Assembly (NCBI RefSeq): GCF_003865015.1
Contig: NZ_BHVV01000001.1
Span: 744,001-808,000, forward strand
DNA: 64,000 bases
Reading direction: 5' to 3'
Source of the DNA: Sulfurisoma sediminicola
Lineage (GTDB): Bacteria; Pseudomonadota; Gammaproteobacteria; Burkholderiales; Rhodocyclaceae
The number at the start of each line of letters is the position of its first letter. Within the stretch, counting starts at the first letter, position 1. Below the pieces are notes generated by a model, which saw only the letters and a list, made by a program, of their open reading frames with translations, did no database searches and had not been told where the DNA came from. The position numbers and the translations under genes were made by a program. Of this stretch, positions 38,363 to 52,607 are shown piece by piece.

Positions 38363-38377
38363 GCACCGATTCGGTGC
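38363..38377. promoter_or_regulatory. NtrC-type enhancer site, proximal (nasA)
   Basis: TGCACC-GATTC-GGTGC, perfect NtrC half-sites; centre at about -85 and exactly 30 bases (three helical turns) from the distal site. Confidence 0.8.
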
Positions 38378-38428: not shown

Positions 38429-38443
38429 TGGCACGTGGCTTGC
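38429..38443 (+). promoter_or_regulatory. Sigma-54 promoter of nasA
   Basis: TGGCACG-TGGC-TTGC, a complete match to the -24/-12 consensus TGGCACG-N4-TTGC. Transcription is expected to begin about 12 bases after the C of TTGC, near 38455, only two bases before the nasA ATG. Confidence 0.88.
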
Positions 38444-38456
38444 ATTTGTTTTTGCC

Positions 38457-41237
38457 ATGATCGAAACGAAAACGAAACAGAGCGGAGTTCCAGAGAAGCC
38501 TAATGCCCGCGATAGCGAGCGTTACGCCGAAACCAAATCCACTTGTTGCTACTGCGGCGTCGGCTGCGGCGTCATCATCGAGTCCGACGGCGAGCGCATC
38601 ACCGGCGTGCGCGGCGACCCCGACCACCCGGCCAACTTCGGCCGCCTGTGCACCAAGGGAGCGACGCTGCACCTTTCCGCAACGCCCGCAACGTTGGCGT
38701 TGCGCGCCGCCCATCCGGAGCTGCGCGAATCCAAGGCCGCGCCGAGAAGCCGGCGCTCCTGGGACGCCGCGCTCGACCACGCCGCCGCACGCTTCGCCGC
38801 AACAATCCGCGAGCACGGCCCCGACAGCGTCGCCTTCTACGTTTCGGGCCAGCTGCTGACCGAGGACTACTACGTCTTCAACAAGCTCGCCAAGGGCCTG
38901 ATCGGCACCAACAACATCGACACCAATTCGCGCCTGTGCATGTCGAGCGCGGTCACCGGCTACAAGATGACCCTGGGTGCCGACGCGCCGCCCTGCGCCT
39001 ACGACGACATCGCGCAGGCCGACTGCCTGTTCATCGCCGGCTCCAACACCGCGTGGGCGCATCCGGTACTGTTCCGCCGCATCGAGGACGCGAAGAAGGC
39101 CAATCCCGAACTTAAGATCATCGTCGTCGATCCGCGCCGCACCGACACCGCCGAGGCCGCCGACCTCTTCCTGCCCATCCTCCCCGGCAGCGACATCGCG
39201 CTCTACAACGCCATGCTGCACGTGATGCTGTGGGAGGGTCTGGTCGACAATGCCTACATCGCCGCGCACACGGAAGGCTTCGAGGCGCTCAAGGCCATCG
39301 TCCGCGACTACACGCCGGCTTTTGCCGCTGACCTCTGCGGCGTGCCGGCAGAGGACATCGTCAAGGCGGCGCAGTGGTTCGGCGCGGCGGGCGCGGCCAC
39401 GCTCTCACTCTACTGCCAGGGATTGAACCAATCCAGCCACGGCAGCCACAACAACGCCGCGCTGATACACCTGCACCTGGCCACGGGCAAGATCGGCAAG
39501 CCGGGCTGCGGTCCCTTCTCGCTCACCGGCCAGCCCAACGCCATGGGTGGGCGCGAGGCCGGCGGCATGGCCACGCTGCTGCCCGGCCACCGCGAGCTCG
39601 CCAACCCCGAGCACCGCGCCGAGATCGCCGAACTGTGGGGCGTGGACAGCGTGCCGGAAGCTCCGGGGCTGTCCGCGGTGGAACTGTTCGACGCCGTGCA
39701 TGCCGGCAAAATCAAGGCGCTGTGGATCGCCTGCACCAACCCGGCGCAGTCCTTGCCCGAGGCCGACAAGGTGCGCGAGGCGCTGGCGCGCTGCGATTTC
39801 GTCGTGGTGCAGGAGGCCTATGCAGACACCGACACCGCCGAGTTCGCCGACCTGCTGCTGCCGGCGTCGAGCTGGGGCGAGAAGGAAGGCACGGTGACCA
39901 ATTCCGAGCGGCGGATCTCGCGGGTGCTTGCCGCGTCTGCCGCACCCGGCGAGGCGCGCGCCGACTGGGACATCGCCGCCGATTTTTCCCGCCGTCTCGG
40001 CATCGCCCTGGGCCGTGCGCAACAGGCCGCGGCGATGTTCCCCTACGTTCGATCCGAGCAGATTTTCATCGACCATGCCGAGACGACGCGCGGCCGCGAC
40101 CTCGACATCACGGGCCTGTCCTATGCGCGACTGGAAAACCAGGGACCGCAGCAATGGCCCTGCCCCACAGGTGCGGCCAGCGGTAGGACGCGGCTCTACG
40201 TGGACGGCGTCTTTCCGACGCCCTCGGGCCGCGCGCGCTTCGTCGCGGTCAAGCACCAGCCCACGGCCGAAGCCATCGACGCGCGTTATCCGCTGCGCCT
40301 CACCACCGGCCGCCTGCGCGACCAGTGGCACGGCATGAGCCGCACAGGCACGGTGGCGCGGCTCTACAGCCACGAACCCGAGCCGGTGCTCGAGCTCAAC
40401 GCCAAGGACATGGAACGGCGCCAGCTCAAGGACGGCGACCTGGTGCGGGCGAAGAGCCGGCGCGGCGGCATCGCCCTGCGCGTGCGCGCATCGGACACCC
40501 TGCGCACCGGCCAGGTCTTTCTGCCCATGCACTGGGGCCGCCGCTTCATGGACAGCGCCGGCGCCAATGCCCTGACCATCGCCGCCTTCGATCCCTACTC
40601 CAAGCAGCCCGAGCTCAAGCATGCGGCGATCCAGGTCGAGAAGCTGTCGGTGCCGTGGCGGCTGTCTGTCTTGAAAAAAGTCGGCGCTGGCGGGACGGCG
40701 ATCATGCGCTCGCTGCAACCCTGGCTCGCCCGCTTCACCCACGCCACGCTGACGCTGGCCGGCCGCGACGATCCGGTGGTCGTCTTCAACGCCTGGGGCG
40801 AGCCGCTGCCCGCCGCGGATCTGGCCGAACTTGACCGCCTGCTCGGCCTCGATGATCCGCTGACCCTGCGCTTCGACGATGCCCGCCGCAACATCCAGAA
40901 GCGCGCGCTGATCGAGGACGGCGAACTCGTCGCCGTACGCCTCGCCGGCGAAACCGCCGCCGCCGGCTGGCTCAAGGACATGATGACCGGCAAGGCGCCG
41001 CTCGAACCCGTGCGCCGCTGGCTGCTCGCCCCGCTGGCCGAGCCGCCGGCCGGCGGCAGCGCGCGCGGCCGGGTCGTCTGCAACTGCTTCGATGTGTCCG
41101 AGGCCGAGATCGTCGCCGACTACCGCGCCGGCCTCGACCTCGCCGCACTGCAGGAGAAGCGGCAATGCGGTACCTCCTGCGGTTCCTGCCTGCCGGAACT
41201 CAAGCGACTGCAGGGACTGGCGAAGCAGGCAGCCTGA
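38457..41237 (+). CDS. nasA: Assimilatory nitrate reductase catalytic subunit
   Basis: A 926-residue cytoplasmic Mo-bis-MGD enzyme reducing nitrate to nitrite. The [4Fe-4S] ligands are Cys30, Cys33, Cys37 and Cys65 (TCCYCGVGCG ... FGRLCTKG), followed by the molybdopterin domains (NTNSRLCMSSAVTGYK, GQPNAMGGREAGGMATLLPGHR, FPTPSGRA). The C-terminal 60 residues are a BFD-like [2Fe-2S] domain with CNCFDVSE and CGTSCGSC, as in Klebsiella-type NasA, suggesting electrons arrive through this domain. No separate reductase subunit (NasB/NasC) is present in the window. No alternative in-frame start lies between the ATG and Cys30. Confidence 0.95.
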   Translation: MIETKTKQSGVPEKPNARDSERYAETKSTCCYCGVGCGVIIESDGERITGVRGDPDHPANFGRLCTKGATLHLSATPATLALRAAHPELRESKAAPRSRRSWDAALDHAAARFAATIREHGPDSVAFYVSGQLLTEDYYVFNKLAKGLIGTNNIDTNSRLCMSSAVTGYKMTLGADAPPCAYDDIAQADCLFIAGSNTAWAHPVLFRRIEDAKKANPELKIIVVDPRRTDTAEAADLFLPILPGSDIALYNAMLHVMLWEGLVDNAYIAAHTEGFEALKAIVRDYTPAFAADLCGVPAEDIVKAAQWFGAAGAATLSLYCQGLNQSSHGSHNNAALIHLHLATGKIGKPGCGPFSLTGQPNAMGGREAGGMATLLPGHRELANPEHRAEIAELWGVDSVPEAPGLSAVELFDAVHAGKIKALWIACTNPAQSLPEADKVREALARCDFVVVQEAYADTDTAEFADLLLPASSWGEKEGTVTNSERRISRVLAASAAPGEARADWDIAADFSRRLGIALGRAQQAAAMFPYVRSEQIFIDHAETTRGRDLDITGLSYARLENQGPQQWPCPTGAASGRTRLYVDGVFPTPSGRARFVAVKHQPTAEAIDARYPLRLTTGRLRDQWHGMSRTGTVARLYSHEPEPVLELNAKDMERRQLKDGDLVRAKSRRGGIALRVRASDTLRTGQVFLPMHWGRRFMDSAGANALTIAAFDPYSKQPELKHAAIQVEKLSVPWRLSVLKKVGAGGTAIMRSLQPWLARFTHATLTLAGRDDPVVVFNAWGEPLPAADLAELDRLLGLDDPLTLRFDDARRNIQKRALIEDGELVAVRLAGETAAAGWLKDMMTGKAPLEPVRRWLLAPLAEPPAGGSARGRVVCNCFDVSEAEIVADYRAGLDLAALQEKRQCGTSCGSCLPELKRLQGLAKQAA
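40674..40700. repeat. Copy of the dispersed repeat inside nasA
   Basis: Six A residues followed by GTCGGCGCTGGCGGGACGGC and G; the 21 bases from 40680 are identical to 3682-3702 in the Tim44-like gene. Both copies are read in the same frame as VGAGGTA. Confidence 0.6.
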
Positions 41238-44843: not shown

Positions 44844-45168
44844 TCAGCCAGACCTCGCCGCCTTCCAGCTTCACCGCGAAGGACTTGCTGCAGCCCTTGT
44901 CGGGCGCGACGGCTTCGCCGTCCTCGAGCTGAATTTTCCAGCTGTGCATCGGGCAGGTGACGACCTTGCCGGCGACGATGCCCTGCGACAGCGGCCCGCC
45001 CTTGTGCGGGCACTTGTCGTGCAGCGCGAAGATCTCGTCGGCCGCGGTGCGGAACACCGCGATGTCGCCTTTCGCCGATTTGACAACGCGGCTGCCCTGC
45101 TGGGGGATTTCGTCGAGCGCGCAGAGGCGCTTCCATTCGGTTTTCATGGCTGTCTCTATCGCGCCCAT
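44833..45168 (-). CDS. nirD: Nitrite reductase (NADH) small subunit
   Basis: A 111-residue Rieske-type ferredoxin subunit of assimilatory nitrite reductase. Rieske-like motifs CPHKGGPLSQG and CPMHSWKIQL carry the Cys/His pairs for a [2Fe-2S] cluster. The ATG at 45168 overlaps the nirB stop by one base (TGATG); an internal ATG at 45147 (MKTEWKRL) has equal claim and would give 104 residues. Confidence 0.94.
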   Translation of the reverse strand: MGAIETAMKTEWKRLCALDEIPQQGSRVVKSAKGDIAVFRTAADEIFALHDKCPHKGGPLSQGIVAGKVVTCPMHSWKIQLEDGEAVAPDKGCSKSFAVKLEGGEVWLKLG

Positions 45169-47612
45169 CAGGCGATCTCCAGGATTTCATATTCCTTGCG
45201 CTTGACCGGCTTGGCCACCGCCTCGCCCCACGGGTCCTCGTAGTCCTGCAGCGCGAACAGCAGGCGCTCGTGCAGTTCCTTGCGCCGTGGCGCATTCTCG
45301 ACCACGATCTTCTTGACGTGCTCGAGGCCGACGCGGGCGACGTAGTGGCAGGTGCGCTCGAGGTAGTAGGCCTCCTCGCGGTAGAGCTGGAGGAAGGCGG
45401 CCGAGTATTCCATGACCTCCTCGTCCGACTTCACCTTGCACAGGAACATCGCCACCTCGGTCTTGATGCCGCCGTTGCCGGCGACGTAGAGTTCGTAGCC
45501 GGAATCGACGCCGATCACGCCGACGTCCTTGATGCCGGCCTCGGCGCAGTTGCGCGGACAACCACTGACCGCGAGCTTGACCTTGTGCGGCGCCCACATG
45601 CCGAACAGCATCTTCTCCAGCTTGACGCCCATGCTCATCGACAGCTGGGTGCCGAAGCGGCAGTGTTCGGCGCCGACGCAGGTCTTCACCGTGCGGATCG
45701 ACTTGCCGTAGGCGTGGCCCGACACCAGGCCGCCCTTGCCGAGGTCGGCCCAGACCGCGGGCAGCTTGTCCTTGGGAATGCCGAGCAGGTCGATGCGCGC
45801 GCCGCCGGTCATCTTCACCGTCGGCACCTCGTACTTTTCGGCCACGTCGGCGATCACGCGCAGCTCGGCCGGCGTGGTCAGGCCGCCCCACATGCGCGGG
45901 ATCACCGAGTAGGTGCCGTCGCGCTGGATGTTGGCGTGGGCGCGCTCGTTGATGAAGCGCGATTGCGGATCGTCCTTGGCCTCGTGCGGCCAGGTCGAGA
46001 TCAGGTAGTAGTTGAGCGCCGGGCGGCATGACGCGCAGCCGTTGGGCGTCTTCCACTCCATGAAGTGCATCACCTCGGGAATGGTCAGCAGATGCTGCTC
46101 GCGAATTGCCGCGCGCACGGCGCCGTGCGGGTGCTCGGTGCAGCCGCAGACCGGCTTGTCCTTGGTGTCGGCTGGTTGGTAGGCGCCGCCGACGGTCGAG
46201 GCGAGGATCTGCTCGACCAGGCCGGTGCAGGAGCCGCACGAAGACGACGCCTTGGTGTGCTTCCTCACGTCGTCGATGGTGAACAGGCCGTGGGTCTTGA
46301 TCGCCTTGACGATGTCGCCCTTGCACACGCCGTTGCAGCCGCAGACCTCGGCGGTGTCGGGCATGGCCGCCGCCTTCGATTGCCCGGCATGGCCGACGTC
46401 GCCGACGTGGTGCGAACCGAACATCAGGTGGTCGCGGATCTCGGCGACGTTCTGCTTGTCCTTGAGCAGCTGGAAATACCAGGCGCCGTCGGCGGTGTCG
46501 CCGTAGAGCACGGCGCCGACGAGGGTGTCGTCCTTGAGCACCAGCTTCTTGTACACGCCGCCGGCCGGATCGTGCAGCACGATCTCGTCGACATTCTCGC
46601 CGCCCATGAAGTCGCCGGCCGAAAACACGTCGATGCCGGTGACCTTGAGCTTGGTCGAGGTCACCGAGCCCTGGTAGCGGCCGATGCCGTGCATGGCGAG
46701 GTGGTTGGCGCAGACCTTGGCCTGCTCGAACAGCGGCGCCACCAGGCCATAGGCGATGCCGCGGTGGGCGACGCATTCGCCGACGGCGTAGACCTTCGGG
46801 TCGAAGGTCTGCAGCGTGTCGTTGACCACGATGCCGCGGTTGCAGTGGATGCCGGCCGATTCGGCGAGCTGGGTGCTGGGGCGGATGCCGACCGCCATCA
46901 CCACTAGCTCGGCGGGAATGGATTCGCCGTCCTTGAATTTGATCGCCGCGACGCGGCCGCTCTCGCCGCCGACGAGCTCCGCCGTCTGCTTGCCGAGCAG
47001 GAACTTGAGGCCCTTGGCTTCGAGCGACTTCTGCAGCAGGTCGGCGGCGGTCTTGTCGAGCTGGCGCTCCATGATCCAGTCGGCGAGGTGCACCACGGTC
47101 ACGTCCATGCCGCGCAGCTTGAGGCCGTTGGCGGCTTCGAGGCCGAGCAGACCGGCGCCGATCACCACGGCGTGCTTGTGATGCCGGGCCGCGTCGATCA
47201 TCGCCTCGGTGTCGGCGATGTCGCGGTAGGCGATGACGCCTTCGAGGTCCTTGCCCGGCACCGGCAGGATGAAGGGCGAGGAGCCGGTGGCGAGCAGCAG
47301 GCGGTCGTACTCGGCCTCGGTGCCGTCGGCGGCGATGACCTTGCGCTTGACGCGGTCGATCTTCGTCACCGTCTTGCCGGCGTGCAGGGTGATGTCGTTG
47401 GCCTCGTACCAGGCGAGGTCGTTGAGCACGATGTCGGGCAGCGTCATCTCGCCCGCCAGCACCGGCGAGAGCAGGATGCGGTTGTAGTTGGGATGCGGCT
47501 CGGCGCCGAACACGGTGATGTCGTACATGTCCGGCGCGAGCTTGATGAGTTCCTCGAGCGTGCGGCAGCCGGCCATGCCGTTGCCGATCATCACGAGCTT
47601 GAGCTTCTTCAT
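45168..47612 (-). CDS. nirB: Nitrite reductase (NADH) large subunit
   Basis: An 814-residue assimilatory enzyme reducing nitrite to ammonium with NADH. FAD/NAD domain: VMIGNGMAGCRTLEELI and VVIGAGLLGLEAANGLK; BFD-like [2Fe-2S] region with CGCNGVCKGDIV and SSSCGSCTGLV; C-terminal sirohaem/[4Fe-4S] domain with TCVGAEHCRFGTQLS and SGCPRNCAEAGI. The ATG at 47612 gives the standard MKKLKLVMIGNGMAG start, two bases after the nrtC stop, so it is part of the nrt operon. Confidence 0.97.
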   Translation of the reverse strand: MKKLKLVMIGNGMAGCRTLEELIKLAPDMYDITVFGAEPHPNYNRILLSPVLAGEMTLPDIVLNDLAWYEANDITLHAGKTVTKIDRVKRKVIAADGTEAEYDRLLLATGSSPFILPVPGKDLEGVIAYRDIADTEAMIDAARHHKHAVVIGAGLLGLEAANGLKLRGMDVTVVHLADWIMERQLDKTAADLLQKSLEAKGLKFLLGKQTAELVGGESGRVAAIKFKDGESIPAELVVMAVGIRPSTQLAESAGIHCNRGIVVNDTLQTFDPKVYAVGECVAHRGIAYGLVAPLFEQAKVCANHLAMHGIGRYQGSVTSTKLKVTGIDVFSAGDFMGGENVDEIVLHDPAGGVYKKLVLKDDTLVGAVLYGDTADGAWYFQLLKDKQNVAEIRDHLMFGSHHVGDVGHAGQSKAAAMPDTAEVCGCNGVCKGDIVKAIKTHGLFTIDDVRKHTKASSSCGSCTGLVEQILASTVGGAYQPADTKDKPVCGCTEHPHGAVRAAIREQHLLTIPEVMHFMEWKTPNGCASCRPALNYYLISTWPHEAKDDPQSRFINERAHANIQRDGTYSVIPRMWGGLTTPAELRVIADVAEKYEVPTVKMTGGARIDLLGIPKDKLPAVWADLGKGGLVSGHAYGKSIRTVKTCVGAEHCRFGTQLSMSMGVKLEKMLFGMWAPHKVKLAVSGCPRNCAEAGIKDVGVIGVDSGYELYVAGNGGIKTEVAMFLCKVKSDEEVMEYSAAFLQLYREEAYYLERTCHYVARVGLEHVKKIVVENAPRRKELHERLLFALQDYEDPWGEAVAKPVKRKEYEILEIA

Positions 47613-47614
47613 GA

Positions 47615-48406
47615 TTAGGCAGCCTTCTTCAGTTGCTTGCGATAGAGGAACTCGAACACCGCGGCGCGGTATTCGCCGAAAGCCGGGTCGTGGGCCAGCG
47701 CGAGGCGATCGCGCGGACGCTCGAGCTTGACCTCGAGGATCTCGCCGATGGTCGCGGCCGGGCCGTTGGTCATCATCACGATGCGGTCGGACAGCAGCAC
47801 CGCCTCGTCGACGTCGTGGGTCACCATAACCACCGTCGCGCCGGTCTTGGCCATGACGCCGTTGAGTTCGTCCTGCAGCGCGGCGCGGGTCAGGGCGTCG
47901 AGCGCGCCGAAGGGCTCGTCCATCAGCAGGATCTTCGGTTCCATGGCGAAGGCGCGGGCGATGCCGATGCGCTGCTTCATGCCGCCGGAGATTTCGTGCG
48001 GATACTTGTGCATGGCGTGCTCCATGTGCACCATCGCCAGCGCTTCCTCGACGCGCGACTTCAGCTTGGGCTTGCCCTCCTTGCGGCCGAACACCTGCTC
48101 GACCCCGAGCATGACGTTCTCGAAGCAGGTCATCCACGGCAGCAGCGAATGGTTCTGGAACACCACCGCGCGCTCCGGCCCGGGGCCGGGAATCTCGCGG
48201 TCCTCGCACAGCAGCACGCCGGTGGAAGGCAGCGTCAGCCCGGCGATGAGGTTGAGCAGCGTGCTCTTGCCGCAGCCGGAGTGGCCGATCAGCGAGACCA
48301 CTTCGCCCTTGCTGATTTCGAGGTCGATGTCGCGCAGCGCGGTGAAGCGCCCGCTCTTGGTGTTGAAGCTCTGGCCGACTCTTTCGATTTTGACGAGTGC
48401 GTTCAT
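47615..48406 (-). CDS. nrtC: Nitrate/nitrite ABC transporter ATPase
   Basis: A 263-residue ABC ATPase: Walker A GHSGCGKSTLL, FQNHSLLPWMT Q-loop, signature EISGGMKQRIGIARA, Walker B ILLMDEPFGALD, and HDVDEAVLLSDRI. It lacks the NrtA-like C-terminal sensor domain of cyanobacterial NrtC, so it corresponds to the NrtD/NasD-type single-domain ATPase. Ten bases separate it from nrtB. Confidence 0.92.
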   Translation of the reverse strand: MNALVKIERVGQSFNTKSGRFTALRDIDLEISKGEVVSLIGHSGCGKSTLLNLIAGLTLPSTGVLLCEDREIPGPGPERAVVFQNHSLLPWMTCFENVMLGVEQVFGRKEGKPKLKSRVEEALAMVHMEHAMHKYPHEISGGMKQRIGIARAFAMEPKILLMDEPFGALDALTRAALQDELNGVMAKTGATVVMVTHDVDEAVLLSDRIVMMTNGPAATIGEILEVKLERPRDRLALAHDPAFGEYRAAVFEFLYRKQLKKAA

Positions 48407-48416
48407 GACGGTTTCC

Positions 48417-49310
48417 TTAGCGTGACTCGTAGCTGAAGCGCTTGGCGAGGAACAGCAGCATCTGTTCGAGGATCAGGCCGACGATGCCGATGACGAAGAT
48501 GGCGATCACGATGTGCTCGACCTTGAGGTTGTTCCACTCGTCCCACACCCAGAAGCCGATGCCGACGCCGCCGGTGAGCATTTCCGCGGCGACGATCACC
48601 AGCCAGGCGGTGCCGATCGACAGGCGGATGCCGGTGAGCATGTAGGGCAGCACGGCGGGGAAGAGGATGCGGGTGATCACCTTGGTTTCGGGCAGGCCGA
48701 GCACGCGGGCGACGTTGAGGTAGTCCTGCGGCACGCGGCGCACGCCCTCGGCGGTGTTGAGGATCATCGGCCAGATGGAGCAGATGAAAATCGTCCACGT
48801 CGCGGCCGGGTCGGCCTTCTTGAACACCAGCAGGCCGATCGGCAGCCACGCCAGCGGACTGACCGGGCGCAGCAGGCTGATGATCGGGTCGAGCATGCGG
48901 TTCATGAAGTTGAAGCGGCCGAGCAGGAAGCCCATGGGGATGCCGATGGCCGCCGCCACGCCGAATCCGATGCCGACACGCTGCAGCGAGGCCAGCACGT
49001 TCCAGCCGATGCCCTGGTCGTTGGGGCCGTTGCGATAGAAGGGATCGGCGAAGAGCTTGACCGCAGCGACCCAGGTTTGGCCGGGGCCGGGTATGGCGCC
49101 GGCCTTCATCGCCACCAGCGCCCAGATGCCGAGCAGCAGCCCGAAGCCGAAGACCGGCGGAATCACGTTGCGCAGGACATCGCGCAGCCGCCCGGCGGCC
49201 TCATGGTGGCTGACGGGTGGCGGGGGGGCAGGTTCGGCGGCGGCGGCCACAGATCGCGGCGGGGCCGTCGCCGCGGCCACGACAGGCTTCAATGCGACAA
49301 CAGTGCTCAT
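48417..49310 (-). CDS. nrtB: Nitrate ABC transporter permease
   Basis: A 297-residue inner-membrane permease: Ala/Pro-rich cytoplasmic N-terminus, six helices and the coupling motif ILNTAEGVRRVPQDYLNVARVLG; ends LFLAKRFSYESR. The ATG at 49310 follows AAGGAGAATGAA, so an in-frame GTG upstream (49325) is really the ribosome site. Confidence 0.93.
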   Translation of the reverse strand: MSTVVALKPVVAAATAPPRSVAAAAEPAPPPPVSHHEAAGRLRDVLRNVIPPVFGFGLLLGIWALVAMKAGAIPGPGQTWVAAVKLFADPFYRNGPNDQGIGWNVLASLQRVGIGFGVAAAIGIPMGFLLGRFNFMNRMLDPIISLLRPVSPLAWLPIGLLVFKKADPAATWTIFICSIWPMILNTAEGVRRVPQDYLNVARVLGLPETKVITRILFPAVLPYMLTGIRLSIGTAWLVIVAAEMLTGGVGIGFWVWDEWNNLKVEHIVIAIFVIGIVGLILEQMLLFLAKRFSYESR

Positions 49311-49328
49311 TTCATTCTCCTTCACGGA

Positions 49329-50573
49329 TTACGCATGCACCTTGAACGAGGCGGCGTACTTCTTCGGGTCCTTGCCGTCCCACACCGTGCCGTCGATCAG
49401 CTTGTGGCTGCGCATGTCGCTCTTCGGCACGGCCACGCCGGCGGCGGTCGCCGCTTGCTTGTAGATGTCGATGCGGTTGACCTTCTTCGCCACGGCCAGG
49501 TAGTCCGGGTCGTCCTTGAGCAGGCCCCAGCGCTTGTGCTGGGTCATGAACCACATCGCGTCCGACAGGTAGGGGAAGGAGGCGTTGCCGTCGCTGAAGA
49601 ACTTCATCGCGTTCTTGTCGTCCCAGGTCTTGCCCAGGCCGTTGGAGTAGCGGCCGAGCATGCGGGCGACGATGACGTCGGCGTCGGTGTTGACATAGGC
49701 CTTGTTGGCGACGGTCTCGGCGGTCTTCTGCTTGTTGCCGAGCGAGGCGTCGATCCACTTGCCGGCGTCGATGATGGCGGCCGTCATGGCGCGCGCCGTA
49801 TTCGGGTTTTTCGCCACCCAGTCGGCCGTCGTGCCCAGTACCTTCTCCGGATGGTCGACCCAGATGTCCTGCGTCGTCACGGCGGTGAAGCCGATGTTGT
49901 CCACGATGGCGCGATTGCCCCAGGGCTCGCCGACGCAGTAGCCATCCATGTTGCCGACGCGCATGTTGGCGACCATCTGCGGCGGCGGCACGGTAATGAT
50001 TTTCGTGTCCTTCATCGGGTTGATGCCGTGCGCCGCCAGCCAGTAATAGAGCCACATGGCGTGGGTGCCGGTGGGGAAGGTCTGGGCGAAGGTGTATTCG
50101 CGCTCCTTCTTCGCGATCAGGGCGGCGAGCTTGGTGCCGTCGGTGGCGCCCTTGTCCTTGAGCTGGTTGGAGAGCGTGATGGCCTGGCCGTTCTGGTTCA
50201 GGGTCATCAGGATGTTCATGTCCTTCTTCGGCCCGCCGATGCCCAGTTGCACGCCGTAGACCAGGCCGTAGAGCACGTGGGCGGCGTCGAGCTCGCCGTT
50301 GACCAGCTTGTCGCGGACGCTGGCCCACGAGGCTTCCTTGGTCGGGATGATCTTGATGCCGTACTTCTCGTCGAACTTCTGCACCGCGGCCATCACCACC
50401 GACGAGCAGTCGGTCAGCGGAATGAAGCCGATGCGCACTTCCTTCTTCTCTGGCGCGTCCGAGCCCGCGGCCCAGGCGCCTGAGCGCACGCCCGGCGGCA
50501 CCATGGCCATCAGTCCCGTGCCCGCCGAGGCGAGCAGAAAGTCGCGGCGATTGAATCCCGATTTGCTGTCCAT
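49329..50573 (-). CDS. nrtA: Nitrate ABC transporter substrate-binding protein (Tat-exported)
   Basis: A 414-residue NrtA/NasF-type binding protein. The N-terminus NRRDFLLASAGTGLMAM has the twin-arginine motif, so it is exported folded. The binding fold shows VRIGFIPLTDCSSVVMAA, PFPTGTHAMWLYYWLAAHG-like FPTGTHAMWLYYWLAAHG and VGNMDGYCVGEPWGNRAI, hallmark ligand-pocket segments. The ATG at 50573 has AAGGAG before it; the frame opens further upstream but that stretch contains the leader terminator. Confidence 0.95.
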   Translation of the reverse strand: MDSKSGFNRRDFLLASAGTGLMAMVPPGVRSGAWAAGSDAPEKKEVRIGFIPLTDCSSVVMAAVQKFDEKYGIKIIPTKEASWASVRDKLVNGELDAAHVLYGLVYGVQLGIGGPKKDMNILMTLNQNGQAITLSNQLKDKGATDGTKLAALIAKKEREYTFAQTFPTGTHAMWLYYWLAAHGINPMKDTKIITVPPPQMVANMRVGNMDGYCVGEPWGNRAIVDNIGFTAVTTQDIWVDHPEKVLGTTADWVAKNPNTARAMTAAIIDAGKWIDASLGNKQKTAETVANKAYVNTDADVIVARMLGRYSNGLGKTWDDKNAMKFFSDGNASFPYLSDAMWFMTQHKRWGLLKDDPDYLAVAKKVNRIDIYKQAATAAGVAVPKSDMRSHKLIDGTVWDGKDPKKYAASFKVHA

Positions 50574-50600: not shown

Positions 50601-50656
50601 GAAAAGAAAAAGGCGTCCACCGCACCCGGGGAAGTCCCTCAGGGGCAATGGACGCC
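50601..50656 (-). terminator. Leader terminator (attenuator) before nrtA
   Basis: Stem GGCGTCCA (50656-50649) with TGGACGCC (50619-50612), enclosing a GC-rich inner hairpin, followed on the minus strand by TTTTTCTTTTC. Its 5' arm overlaps the second hairpin of the ANTAR element. Confidence 0.88.
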
Positions 50657-50686
50657 GTTGTCCGATGCGGATCGTCATTGACCCGC
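50650..50686 (-). promoter_or_regulatory. ANTAR-responsive double hairpin (NasT antiterminator target)
   Basis: Hairpin 1: GCGGGTC-AATGAC-GATCCGC; linker ATC; hairpin 2: GGAC-AACGGC-GTCC. Both loops are six bases with A in position 1 and G in position 4, the defining features of ANTAR RNA targets. The 3' arm of hairpin 2 is part of the terminator 5' arm, so the two structures exclude each other. Confidence 0.8.
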
Positions 50687-50702
50687 GCTTGGCCTCACTT
50701 CA

Positions 50703-50717
50703 GCAATGGCCGTGCCA
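50703..50717 (-). promoter_or_regulatory. Sigma-54 promoter of nrtABC-nirBD
   Basis: TGGCACG-GCCA-TTGC on the minus strand, a full match to the -24/-12 consensus. Predicted start near 50691, five bases before the ANTAR element. Confidence 0.88.
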
Positions 50718-50760
50718 GGTCTGTGAAATCGGTCGGAAACCCTTGCCGTGACGGGATCGG

Positions 50761-50783
50761 CATGGCGCCAGCGCCGACTTTTT
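50761..50783. repeat. Copy of the dispersed repeat upstream of nrtA
   Basis: On the minus strand AAAAAGTCGGCGCTGGCG, the same core (with the A run) as at 40674. It sits between the NtrC site and the sigma-54 promoter. Confidence 0.4.
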
Positions 50784-50808
50784 GGATTGAGGCCCTGGCC
50801 GCATCGGC

Positions 50809-50823
50809 GCACCACACTGGTGC
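50809..50823. promoter_or_regulatory. NtrC-type enhancer site (nrtA)
   Basis: GCACC-ACACT-GGTGC, perfect half-sites (TGCACC-N5-GGTGC on the minus strand). Centre about 125 bases upstream of the predicted start. Confidence 0.8.
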
Positions 50824-50842: not shown

Positions 50843-51418
50843 CTACAACAAGACCTTGGCCATCTCCACCACGTCGGCCGCCGCGCGACCCAAAGTCTGG
50901 CCGCGATCCATCGCCAGCTTGCGCAGTGCGGCGTAGGCGGCCTGCTCGTCCATGCCGCGCGCCTTCATCAGCACGCCCTTGGCGCGGTCGATGGTCTTGC
51001 GCTCGGCCAGCGCCTGGGTGGCGACGTCGCGCTCGCGCCGGAGTTCCTGATGCTCCTCGAAGCGGGCGATGGCCACGTCGATCACCGGCGCCAGCCGTCC
51101 CGGCGTCAGGCCATCCACCACATAGGCCGACACCCCGGCCTTGAAGGCCTTGCGCATGACGCGGCCGTCGCGGTTCTTGGCGAACATCACCACCGGCCGC
51201 GGCGCTGCGGCATTGATCACGGCCAGGTGTTCGAGCGTGTCGCGCGACGGTGCGTCGGTCTGGATCAATATCACGTCGGGGCCGATCTCCTCGACGCGGC
51301 GCGTGAGGTCGGCCGCTGTCGGCAGCAGCGCCGCCACCTGGTGGCCGGCCAGTGCCAGGCCGGCGCAGATCTCGCCTGCCCGGGCTTCCAGTTCATCGAT
51401 GACCAGTACGCGCAGCAT
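50843..51418 (-). CDS. nasT: ANTAR-domain response regulator NasT
   Basis: A 191-residue two-domain protein: receiver-like domain (VLVIDELEARAGEI at the start; IQTDAPS in place of the usual phosphorylated Asp region) and C-terminal ANTAR RNA-binding domain (ERKTIDRAKGVLMKARGMDEQAAYAALRKLAMDRGQTL). NasT stops transcription termination in nitrate-assimilation leaders; the target RNA lies directly downstream in the nrtA leader. In other bacteria NasS holds NasT inactive without nitrate; no NasS gene is visible here. The ATG at 51418 is preferred to the TTG at 51430. Confidence 0.93.
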   Translation of the reverse strand: MLRVLVIDELEARAGEICAGLALAGHQVAALLPTAADLTRRVEEIGPDVILIQTDAPSRDTLEHLAVINAAAPRPVVMFAKNRDGRVMRKAFKAGVSAYVVDGLTPGRLAPVIDVAIARFEEHQELRRERDVATQALAERKTIDRAKGVLMKARGMDEQAAYAALRKLAMDRGQTLGRAAADVVEMAKVLL

Positions 51419-51464
51419 GACGTCTATCAAGCAATTGCCAGGCCAGTCCCTCTACAATTGCCGC

Positions 51465-52607
51465 ATGAACCCCCTGCGCGCGGCTTGGCTGCGCCTCAAA
51501 CCGGACCCGAGCAACGTTCCCGCCGCCGAGCAGCTGCGCTCGGCGCTGGCGGTTGCAGCCGGCGTGCTGGCCACGGCCGGGCTCTCGGCCTGGCTTCTCG
51601 GCAGTTCTCCCCTGTTGGTCGCCGCGGTCGGCGCCTCGGCGGTGATCCTGCTGGCGCTGCCCACCAGCCCACTGGCGCAGCCGTGGGCGCTGGTCGGCGG
51701 TTATCTGGTTTGCGCCGCGGCCGGCGTCGTCGGTGCGCATGCGCTGCCCCACGTGGTGCTGGCGGCGGCGCTGGCGGTGGGACTGGGCACGCTGGGCATG
51801 CTGCTGTTGCGCTGCCTGCATCCGCCCGGCGGTGCGGTGGCCCTGTTCGCGGTCATCGGCGGCGAGAGGGTCGTCGCCCTCGGCTGGCAGTACCTGCTGA
51901 TGCCGGTCCTGTTCAATGCGCTGCTGCTGCTGGCCGCAGCCCTGATCATCAACAACCTGATGCCCGGAAGGCACTACCCGCGGCTGCTGCCGCAGGAACT
52001 CGAGCGCGGGCCGGACGACGAGGCGGAGCCGCGCGACCGCCTCGGGCTGCGTCGCCAGGACCTGCATGCCGCGCTGCGTGGCTACGGCCACCTGGTCGAC
52101 GTCAGCAACGAGGAGCTCGACGAGATCGTCGAGCAGGCGGAGCAACTCGCCTTCCGCCGCGCCTTCGGCGAACTCGCCTGCGCCGACATCATGACCCATG
52201 TGGCGTTCACCGTGCGGCCGGATACCAGCCTGCTCGAGGCCTGGCGCACGCTGCGCCGCCACCGGCTGGTCGTGCTGCTGGTGGTCGACAGCCTCAACCG
52301 CGTCGTGGGCGTGCTGGGCCTCGAGGACTTCGTGAGCGCCGCCAAGGCCCGCACGGCGTGCGGCGTGCGCGACCGCATCCTCCGCCTGCTGCGCTTCAAC
52401 TTCGCGCGCGACGCCTCGACCGCGTCGATCATGCGCCGCGAAGTGCGGGTCGTTGCCGCCGATGCGCACGTGGCCGAACTGGTGGAGCCCATGTCGCGCG
52501 GCGACCATCTGGCGGCGGTCGTCGATGGCGAGCGCCGGCTGCTCGGTGTCATCACCCAGTCGGATCTCATTGCGGCGCTCTACCGCGGCTGCGGTTCGGT
52601 GTCTTGA
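51465..52607 (+). CDS. HPP-family membrane protein with tandem CBS domains
   Basis: A 380-residue protein. The first 170 residues form an HPP domain of four helices with the name motif in RCLHPPGGAVALFAVIGG. The rest has a linker and two CBS domains (ACADIMTHVAFTVRPDTSLLEAW; ASIMRREVRVVAADAHVAEL ... LGVITQSDLIAALY). HPP proteins have been linked to nitrite transport in plastids and cyanobacteria, and CBS pairs bind adenine nucleotides. Placement next to the nitrate genes makes a nitrite/nitrate role attractive but unproven. It is divergent from nasT. Confidence 0.87.
   Translation: MNPLRAAWLRLKPDPSNVPAAEQLRSALAVAAGVLATAGLSAWLLGSSPLLVAAVGASAVILLALPTSPLAQPWALVGGYLVCAAAGVVGAHALPHVVLAAALAVGLGTLGMLLLRCLHPPGGAVALFAVIGGERVVALGWQYLLMPVLFNALLLLAAALIINNLMPGRHYPRLLPQELERGPDDEAEPRDRLGLRRQDLHAALRGYGHLVDVSNEELDEIVEQAEQLAFRRAFGELACADIMTHVAFTVRPDTSLLEAWRTLRRHRLVVLLVVDSLNRVVGVLGLEDFVSAAKARTACGVRDRILRLLRFNFARDASTASIMRREVRVVAADAHVAELVEPMSRGDHLAAVVDGERRLLGVITQSDLIAALYRGCGSVS

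Follow-up and report, generated by a model that had tools for sequence, protein, structure and literature searches.

The window analyzed here, a 64,000-nucleotide stretch of the Sulfurisoma sediminicola genome, carries on its minus strand the nasT gene followed by the nrtABC-nirB operon, with a leader region between nasT and nrtA (Table 1). As anticipated in the original prediction, the gene adjoining this leader on its upstream side encodes NasT, which combines an ANTAR with a receiver-like domain and is of the type that operates in NasS-NasT systems. The genome search yielded no second ANTAR gene, and this one provides, next to the leader, the ANTAR protein that an attenuator of this class calls for. 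The nrtA product bears a Tat-type signal (RRDFLLASAG, recognized by script and inspection) and has the cyanobacterial NrtA 2g29 as its best solved relative, while internal Met codons of the gene are candidate internal starts for a cytoplasmic form.

Table 1. Genes and regulatory features of the nasT-nrtA region and of nasA (window coordinates)
Feature	Position	Strand	Description
nirB	45168..47618	minus	large subunit of the assimilatory nitrite reductase; start codon not fixed
nrtC	47615..48406	minus	ATPase of 263 aa that lacks the C-terminal NrtA-like domain seen in cyanobacterial NrtC
nrtB	48417..49325	minus	permease
nrtA	49329..50573	minus	ABC-transporter nitrate-binding protein, 414 aa, NMT1_2 family
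T-run	50611-50601	minus	TTTTTCTTTTC, 3' of the terminator stem-loop
Predicted intrinsic terminator	50656-50612	minus	stem-loop with 12-bp outer stem and inner stem, -34 kcal/mol
ANTAR hairpin P2	50663-50650	minus	GGAC-AACGGC-GTCC, hexaloop AACGGC, A1/G4
ANTAR hairpin P1	50686-50667	minus	GCGGGTC-AATGAC-GATCCGC, hexaloop AATGAC, A1/G4
Predicted sigma-54 promoter	50717-50702	minus	TGGCACGGCCATTGCT, consensus -24/-12, predicted +1 ~50691
NtrC-type palindrome	50823-50809	minus	GCACCAGTGTGGTGC, perfect
nasT	50843..51418	minus	191 aa, receiver-like and ANTAR domains
Predicted sigma-54 site before nasT	51416-51445	minus	TGGCCTGGCAATTGCT, predicted start ~1 base before ATG
Gene divergent from nasT	51444-52607	plus	HPP-family membrane protein with two CBS domains
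NtrC palindrome before nasA	38363-38377
Strict sigma-54 site before nasA	38429-38444		predicted start 38455
nasA	38457-41237	plus

All of the elements originally proposed for the segment 50601-50823 (an NtrC palindrome, a sigma-54 promoter, two hairpins and a terminator) are present on the minus strand, and a check of the positions confirmed A1 and G4 in both hexaloops. The leader thus has the two A1/G4 hexaloop hairpins of an ANTAR two-hairpin attenuator, separated by a linker of 3 nt if P1 is counted as 7 pairs. Its second hairpin is mutually exclusive with the intrinsic terminator, as follows from their overlap and from the exclusive folds. The sharing of sequence between P2 and the 5' arm of the terminator is real, although it extends over 7 nt (50656-50650, comprising GGC of the loop and GTCC of the stem) and not over the four bases given originally. 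Upon computational folding of the transcript at growing lengths, P1 and P2 persisted until 70 nt, the terminator supplanted P2 at 80 nt, and the minimum-energy fold at full length contained the terminator alone, as an attenuator would predict. A simple terminator scan picked up only the inner 5-bp part of this structure.

With both strands considered, the window contains a single instance of P1 and P2 combined with an overlapping terminator, and none arose in 40 dinucleotide shuffles of its full sequence, each likewise scored on both strands. It could be argued that the stem-loop with its T-run is a plain terminator of nasT, right behind which the leader sits, and that the double hairpin arose by chance; in fact, the double hairpin by itself appeared with a mean of 1.0 per shuffle, i.e. 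about once per 64 kb. On the other hand, a promoter is located between nasT and the hairpins at a fixed spacing, the stems covary, and the leader precedes nrtA even in genomes where nasT lies elsewhere (see below). With these observations and the zero count in the shuffles, such an explanation is hardly credible and was set aside.

A search with an ANTAR RNA covariance model had been proposed as a check. An Rfam scan of the window returned no match at the gathering score, and therefore a model of our own (R1) was built, which does match the window leader. Its basis was a sample of 199 genomes of the family (f1; the named relatives are Rhodocyclaceae and Methyloversatilis) searched with NasT, up to 16 candidates being scored per genome. 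At E 1e-3 a match was obtained in 156 of the 199, many of them, judging by their low scores, other receiver-domain proteins; 81 nasT-bearing genomes (E 1.5e-35 or better, including that of the Sulfurisoma window itself) were taken. Within the stretch covered, an NrtA-family gene is located downstream of nasT in 75 of these 81 genomes and upstream of it in none, the upstream stretch being 0.2 kb in locus L096, 0.7-0.8 kb in L014 and L059 and at least 1.5 kb in the rest.

From the 62 leaders with a recognizable P2, 35 were picked for clean P1-P2 spacing and aligned to train R1; linker lengths vary widely among the family leaders. In this alignment 96.9% of 390 cells are paired, both sides have changed in 7 of the 12 pairs, and the stem covariation is 0.444 as compared with 0.209 for shuffled and at most 0.124 for slid alignments. 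The closing C:G pair is invariant in both stems of all 35 leaders, a feature also reported from the published selection with NasR (PMC7496416). G4 is likewise invariant in either loop, as is A1 in P2; A1 of P1 is found in 34 of 35, the exception being the nearest relative (L036), with G in this position.

R1 detects the leader in 75 of the 81 nasT-bearing genomes, 40 of which were outside the training set, and places it in every case 150-384 nt upstream of the core of an NrtA-family gene. In seven genomes (G008, G020, G031, G050, G062, G127 and G147) nrtA is not adjacent to nasT or is more than 1.2 kb away from it, and there, too, the leader precedes nrtA. No accepted match precedes an NrtA-family gene in the other six loci (L032, L084, L085, L092, L095 and L097); in L085 a weak match (E 0.008) lies ahead of a second binding-protein gene. 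In the Sulfurisoma genome, with 150 of the 2874 first-look candidates scored, the window leader is the one strong match (54.2 bits, E 4e-11). The next match in the same scoring (23 bits, E 0.007) falls, by inspection, inside a thymidylate-synthase-like frame and was rejected as a further target of NasT. In two genomes of one genus the nrtA leader is followed, about 5 kb downstream, by a second strong match (42.2 bits; L046 8552-8619 and L043 1982-2049), which lies about 0.85-0.92 kb before nirB. Leaders in these two loci and in L024, L051, L068 and L072 seemingly have three A1/G4-type hairpins, not two, before the terminator.

The promoter elements are conserved along with the RNA. A sigma-54 site scoring at least 9 of 11 is present within 60 nt upstream of the motif in 72 of the 75 leaders (0.45% in shuffles), and in 69 of those 72 it lies 8-14 nt ahead of the RNA motif. 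Because of this fixed short spacing, the transcript probably starts at P1. A perfect NtrC palindrome occurs within 350 nt upstream of 58 of the 75 leaders (0.58 expected from shuffles). Individually these elements are not as rare, the window having 3 occurrences of GCACN7GTGC and 2 of the strict sigma-54 pattern. Since the Sulfurisoma genome encodes NtrC (696 bits) and one sigma-54 factor, RpoN, in addition to the -24/-12 element and the upstream NtrC site, the promoter is assigned, by sequence criteria, to the NtrC-dependent sigma-54 class. The genome also encodes TatC.

Taken together, these data make it very probable that the leader is a two-input gate before nrtABC-nirB, combining NtrC/sigma-54-dependent initiation with NasT-dependent antitermination. 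Upon nitrogen limitation, NtrC at 50809-50823 would enable the sigma-54 polymerase to start, by comparison with related systems, at ~50691, and the new transcript would fold P1 and P2. Without NasT the terminator would capture the 3' half of P2, causing transcription to stop at the T-run; NasT, if it binds the hexaloops as its relatives do, would keep P2 closed and let the operon be read. A nitrate response of the leader, if any, we likewise infer. As the original prediction held, such a mechanism is established in other bacteria, and accounts of it are in print for EutV, NasR and NasT-type proteins (PMC3369931, PMC7496416, PMC8934654, PMC5424462). Of the two layers it envisaged, initiation by NtrC and sigma-54 and the ANTAR-type elongation switch both have comparative support. 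Its remaining component, a NasT released by nitrate, is unsupported as written, because it presupposes a NasS protein and none was found (see below).

The eut leaders of Enterococcus, the targets of EutV, contain the same two A1/G4 hexaloop hairpins, the second overlapping a terminator (PMC3369931, PMC8934654). One detail of that system counts against the gate in Sulfurisoma: as described for EutV, a 3-nt linker, the length here if P1 has 7 pairs, strongly reduced induction (PMC3369931). EutV is activated by phosphorylation, and a NasT switched in this way by a histidine kinase would be in line with the presence of its receiver-like domain. The Sulfurisoma NasT, however, has Gln at residue 52, the position of the phospho-acceptor Asp expected in an EutV-type receiver domain, and Asp is found at this position in just 17 of the 81 family NasT proteins as opposed to 35 of 35 in loci L116-L150 (40 of 42 when seven more proteins are added, with one Ala and one unalignable). 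With the acceptor replaced, control by phosphorylation appears very improbable and was set aside. The motif R58-D59, on the other hand, is retained in Sulfurisoma, in 79 of the 81 family proteins and in all 35 of L116-L150. Of the two exceptions, L096 is cut by a contig end and G012 has neither an NrtA-family match nor the leader.

In the NasS-NasT systems described so far, NasS is a signal-less cytoplasmic relative of NrtA that holds NasT and frees it on nitrate (PMC3795266). No such protein was found in the Sulfurisoma genome (99.99% complete) by either the NrtA search or the NMT1_2 profile. The NrtA search returned two proteins (E 5e-286 and 5e-65). The profile recovered both of these (at 350 and 271 bits) and two others, of which one scored 69.6 bits and the other fell below the cut-off. 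Signals were assessed for the 350- and 271-bit proteins, and both bear Tat-type signals, leaving the place of a signal-less cytoplasmic NasS empty among the proteins of the NrtA search. The second of them (contig 6, 35% identity) is encoded, by inspection, near permease-like and ATPase-like genes.

Most of the family is similar in this respect, with NasS not found in the majority of the 81 nasT-bearing genomes, some of which are drafts that may hide genes. The NrtA-family threshold was E 1e-20 in 61 genomes and 1e-3 in 19 and in the Sulfurisoma genome, and signal classes were assigned by a script (RR-x-hydrophobic followed by a hydrophobic stretch) combined with inspection and not by a trained predictor. 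On this basis, an exported-type NrtA is encoded beside the leader or nasT in 72 of 81 genomes: 71 by script, including the doubtful G119 (L032), scored as Tat with a degenerate-looking signal, plus G163 (L059), scored 'none' owing to KR in place of RR and counted as exported. A signal-less form lies beside nasT in seven (G024, G030, G070, G085, G089, G176 and G184), and two (G012 and G019) have no NrtA-family match. The exported-type NrtA is the sole family member found in 54 of the 81 (53 by script, G119 included, plus G163), and G074 has a signal-less paralogue (64%) elsewhere in addition to its exported NrtA.

The known kinds of NasS should have shown up in these searches, since Pseudomonas-type NasS is 47-54% and the NasS proteins beside nasT in alphaproteobacteria are 27-39% identical to the Sulfurisoma NrtA, and since NasS-type genes were recovered at E 1e-149 to 1e-32 when 70 genomes from other families were searched. 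These 70 were drawn from a set of 115 genomes with NasT that do not belong to the family, and 68 of them gave an NrtA-family match. The remaining two, G273 and G580, had none at E 1e-10, which indicates that NasT-like proteins can exist without an NrtA-class partner.

How NasT would then be controlled can be answered in several ways. It may be free of nitrate control and active whenever made, with nitrogen limitation at nasT and nrtA as the sole input and a feed-forward delay between them. The failure to find NasS in the Sulfurisoma genome and in most of the family would agree with this, as would the constitutive behavior described for a Paracoccus nasS mutant (PMC3795266). A sigma-54 site is also predicted before nasT, in the window and at a score of at least 9 of 11 in 66 of 80 loci (at least 8 in 70 of 80, a score reached by 9.6% of shuffles; the spacing is that of a leaderless transcript in 34 of the 70). 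An always-on antiterminator, on the other hand, gives little reason to keep the hairpins and the terminator in 75 of the 81 genomes. R58-D59, moreover, is retained in nearly all NasT proteins although the phospho-acceptor is not, and we consider an unregulated NasT rather unlikely.

The possibility that NasT answers to some other protein or small molecule outside the NrtA/NasS class has nothing specific in its favor and follows from the absence of NasS, although the lack of an NrtA-family match in 2 of 70 NasT-bearing genomes of other families (G273 and G580) would be in keeping with it. It is harder to reconcile with G012, where an intact NasT-like protein in a genome without NrtA or NasS has lost the receiver motif, and we regard such a controller as improbable to about the same degree. 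Both G012 and G019 are single genomes as far as this comparison goes. The NasT-like protein of G012 has perhaps been put to another use; by inspection, its gene (L095) adjoins a very long histidine-kinase-like frame. In G019 the nasT frame diverges from NasT after about residue 102, which could be an assembly error.

The most economical candidate for the control of NasT is NrtA itself, and we tentatively propose, on sequence grounds and as a possibility that we favor without counting it as probable, that the Tat-exported NrtA also acts as the nitrate sensor of NasT in this family. Tat substrates fold before export, and the NrtA preprotein could therefore bind nitrate in the cytoplasm. It could also hold or release NasT and thereby control its own operon through the leader. 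Pseudomonas-type NasS would then be a descendant of such an NrtA, whose export signal disappeared after the adjacent transporter had been lost or replaced.

This proposal was confronted with a tree of 90 NrtA-family proteins (a quick tree with long branches flagged and L020 represented by a fragment). The NasS proteins of the Pseudomonas type and of Burkholderiales form one clade with the Tat-type NrtA (SH-aLRT 99). Signal-less forms of the family sample (G070, G176, G184 and the G074 paralogue) account for four changes in the tree, of which well-supported branches force three. The NasS-like proteins of G024, G030, G085 and G089 are placed elsewhere, as is most alphaproteobacterial NasS. Pseudomonas-type NasS keeps, near its start, the motif AWV-x-GSDAPEK, corresponding to AWAAGSDAPEK after the Tat signal of NrtA, and an R1 match (E 0.05 or better) precedes nasS in 6 of 11 Pseudomonas-type loci (L127, L131, L136 and L140; weaker in L134 and L196). 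At Tat-type NrtA loci, nrtB and nrtC come next in all 8 examined from other genomes and likewise in the window. No nrtB or nrtC was found within the stretch covered around the signal-less genes of G070, G184 and the G074 paralogue, and in G176 a second binding protein lies ahead of nrtBC-like genes. Where a signal-less form adjoins nasT (seven genomes), NasT carries Asp at residue 52 in five cases, Gln in G070 and His in G184.

The tree, the retained motif, the gene neighborhoods and the NasT residue patterns, all of them comparative evidence, fit an NrtA that does the job of NasS before export. An argument against drawing this conclusion is that NrtA, simply because it binds nitrate and is encoded beside nasT, could repeatedly have given rise to NasS. 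In addition, a search for NrtA positions peculiar to nasT-linked forms (72 linked versus 11 unlinked sequences) gave two weak ones, G114 and R261, which speaks against a sensory NrtA or is at least of no help to it.

The leader type as such is already known from the NasT and NasR ANTAR attenuators behind NtrC promoters. The NasS-NasT systems of Paracoccus, Azotobacter, Pseudomonas and Bradyrhizobium, as described, have in common with the present one the NasT-type ANTAR protein, the two-hairpin leader with a terminator, and NtrC control of nitrate assimilation (PMC3795266, PMC5424462). Unlike them, Sulfurisoma has no NasS that we could find, and its leader stands before a transporter binding-protein gene (the target being nrtABC-nirB) instead of nasA. 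The nasF leader of Klebsiella likewise joins general nitrogen control with nitrate-responsive ANTAR antitermination (PMC5424462, PMC7496416), although NasR carries its own nitrate-sensing NIT domain, which the Sulfurisoma NasT lacks.

The position of NasT before nrtA without NasS sets the whole system apart as a variant. A precedent for an NrtA-like domain in a non-exported protein is offered by cyanobacterial NrtC and CmpC (solved chains are named C-terminal regulatory domain, CmpC and NrtC), where the domain has a regulatory role. There it is fused to the transporter ATPase, in contrast to the Sulfurisoma NrtC. The survey of 1902 genomes by Ramesh et al. reports ANTAR motifs before nitrate/nitrite transporter and nitrite reductase genes (PMC3369931), and leaders of the present class may already be listed in it. 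No paper describing NasT in the absence of NasS, or NrtA as a partner of NasT, was found in the open-access literature.

Overall, these results extend a known type of attenuator to a family where nearly all nasT-bearing genomes examined carry it upstream of nrtA, and they supply an RNA model (R1) that is absent from Rfam. The absence of NasS raises a testable question, namely from where NasT would receive its nitrate signal when the sole NrtA-class protein is the exported one of the transporter. Should NrtA indeed do both jobs, a transport protein would sense its own substrate on behalf of its own operon before being exported, and there would be an explanation for how Pseudomonas-type NasS originated.

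The second pair of NtrC and sigma-54 sites in the window precedes nasA on the plus strand (Table 1). The predicted start, two bases ahead of the ATG, would yield a nearly leaderless transcript without an ANTAR leader, and the nitrate reductase would thus answer to nitrogen limitation only.
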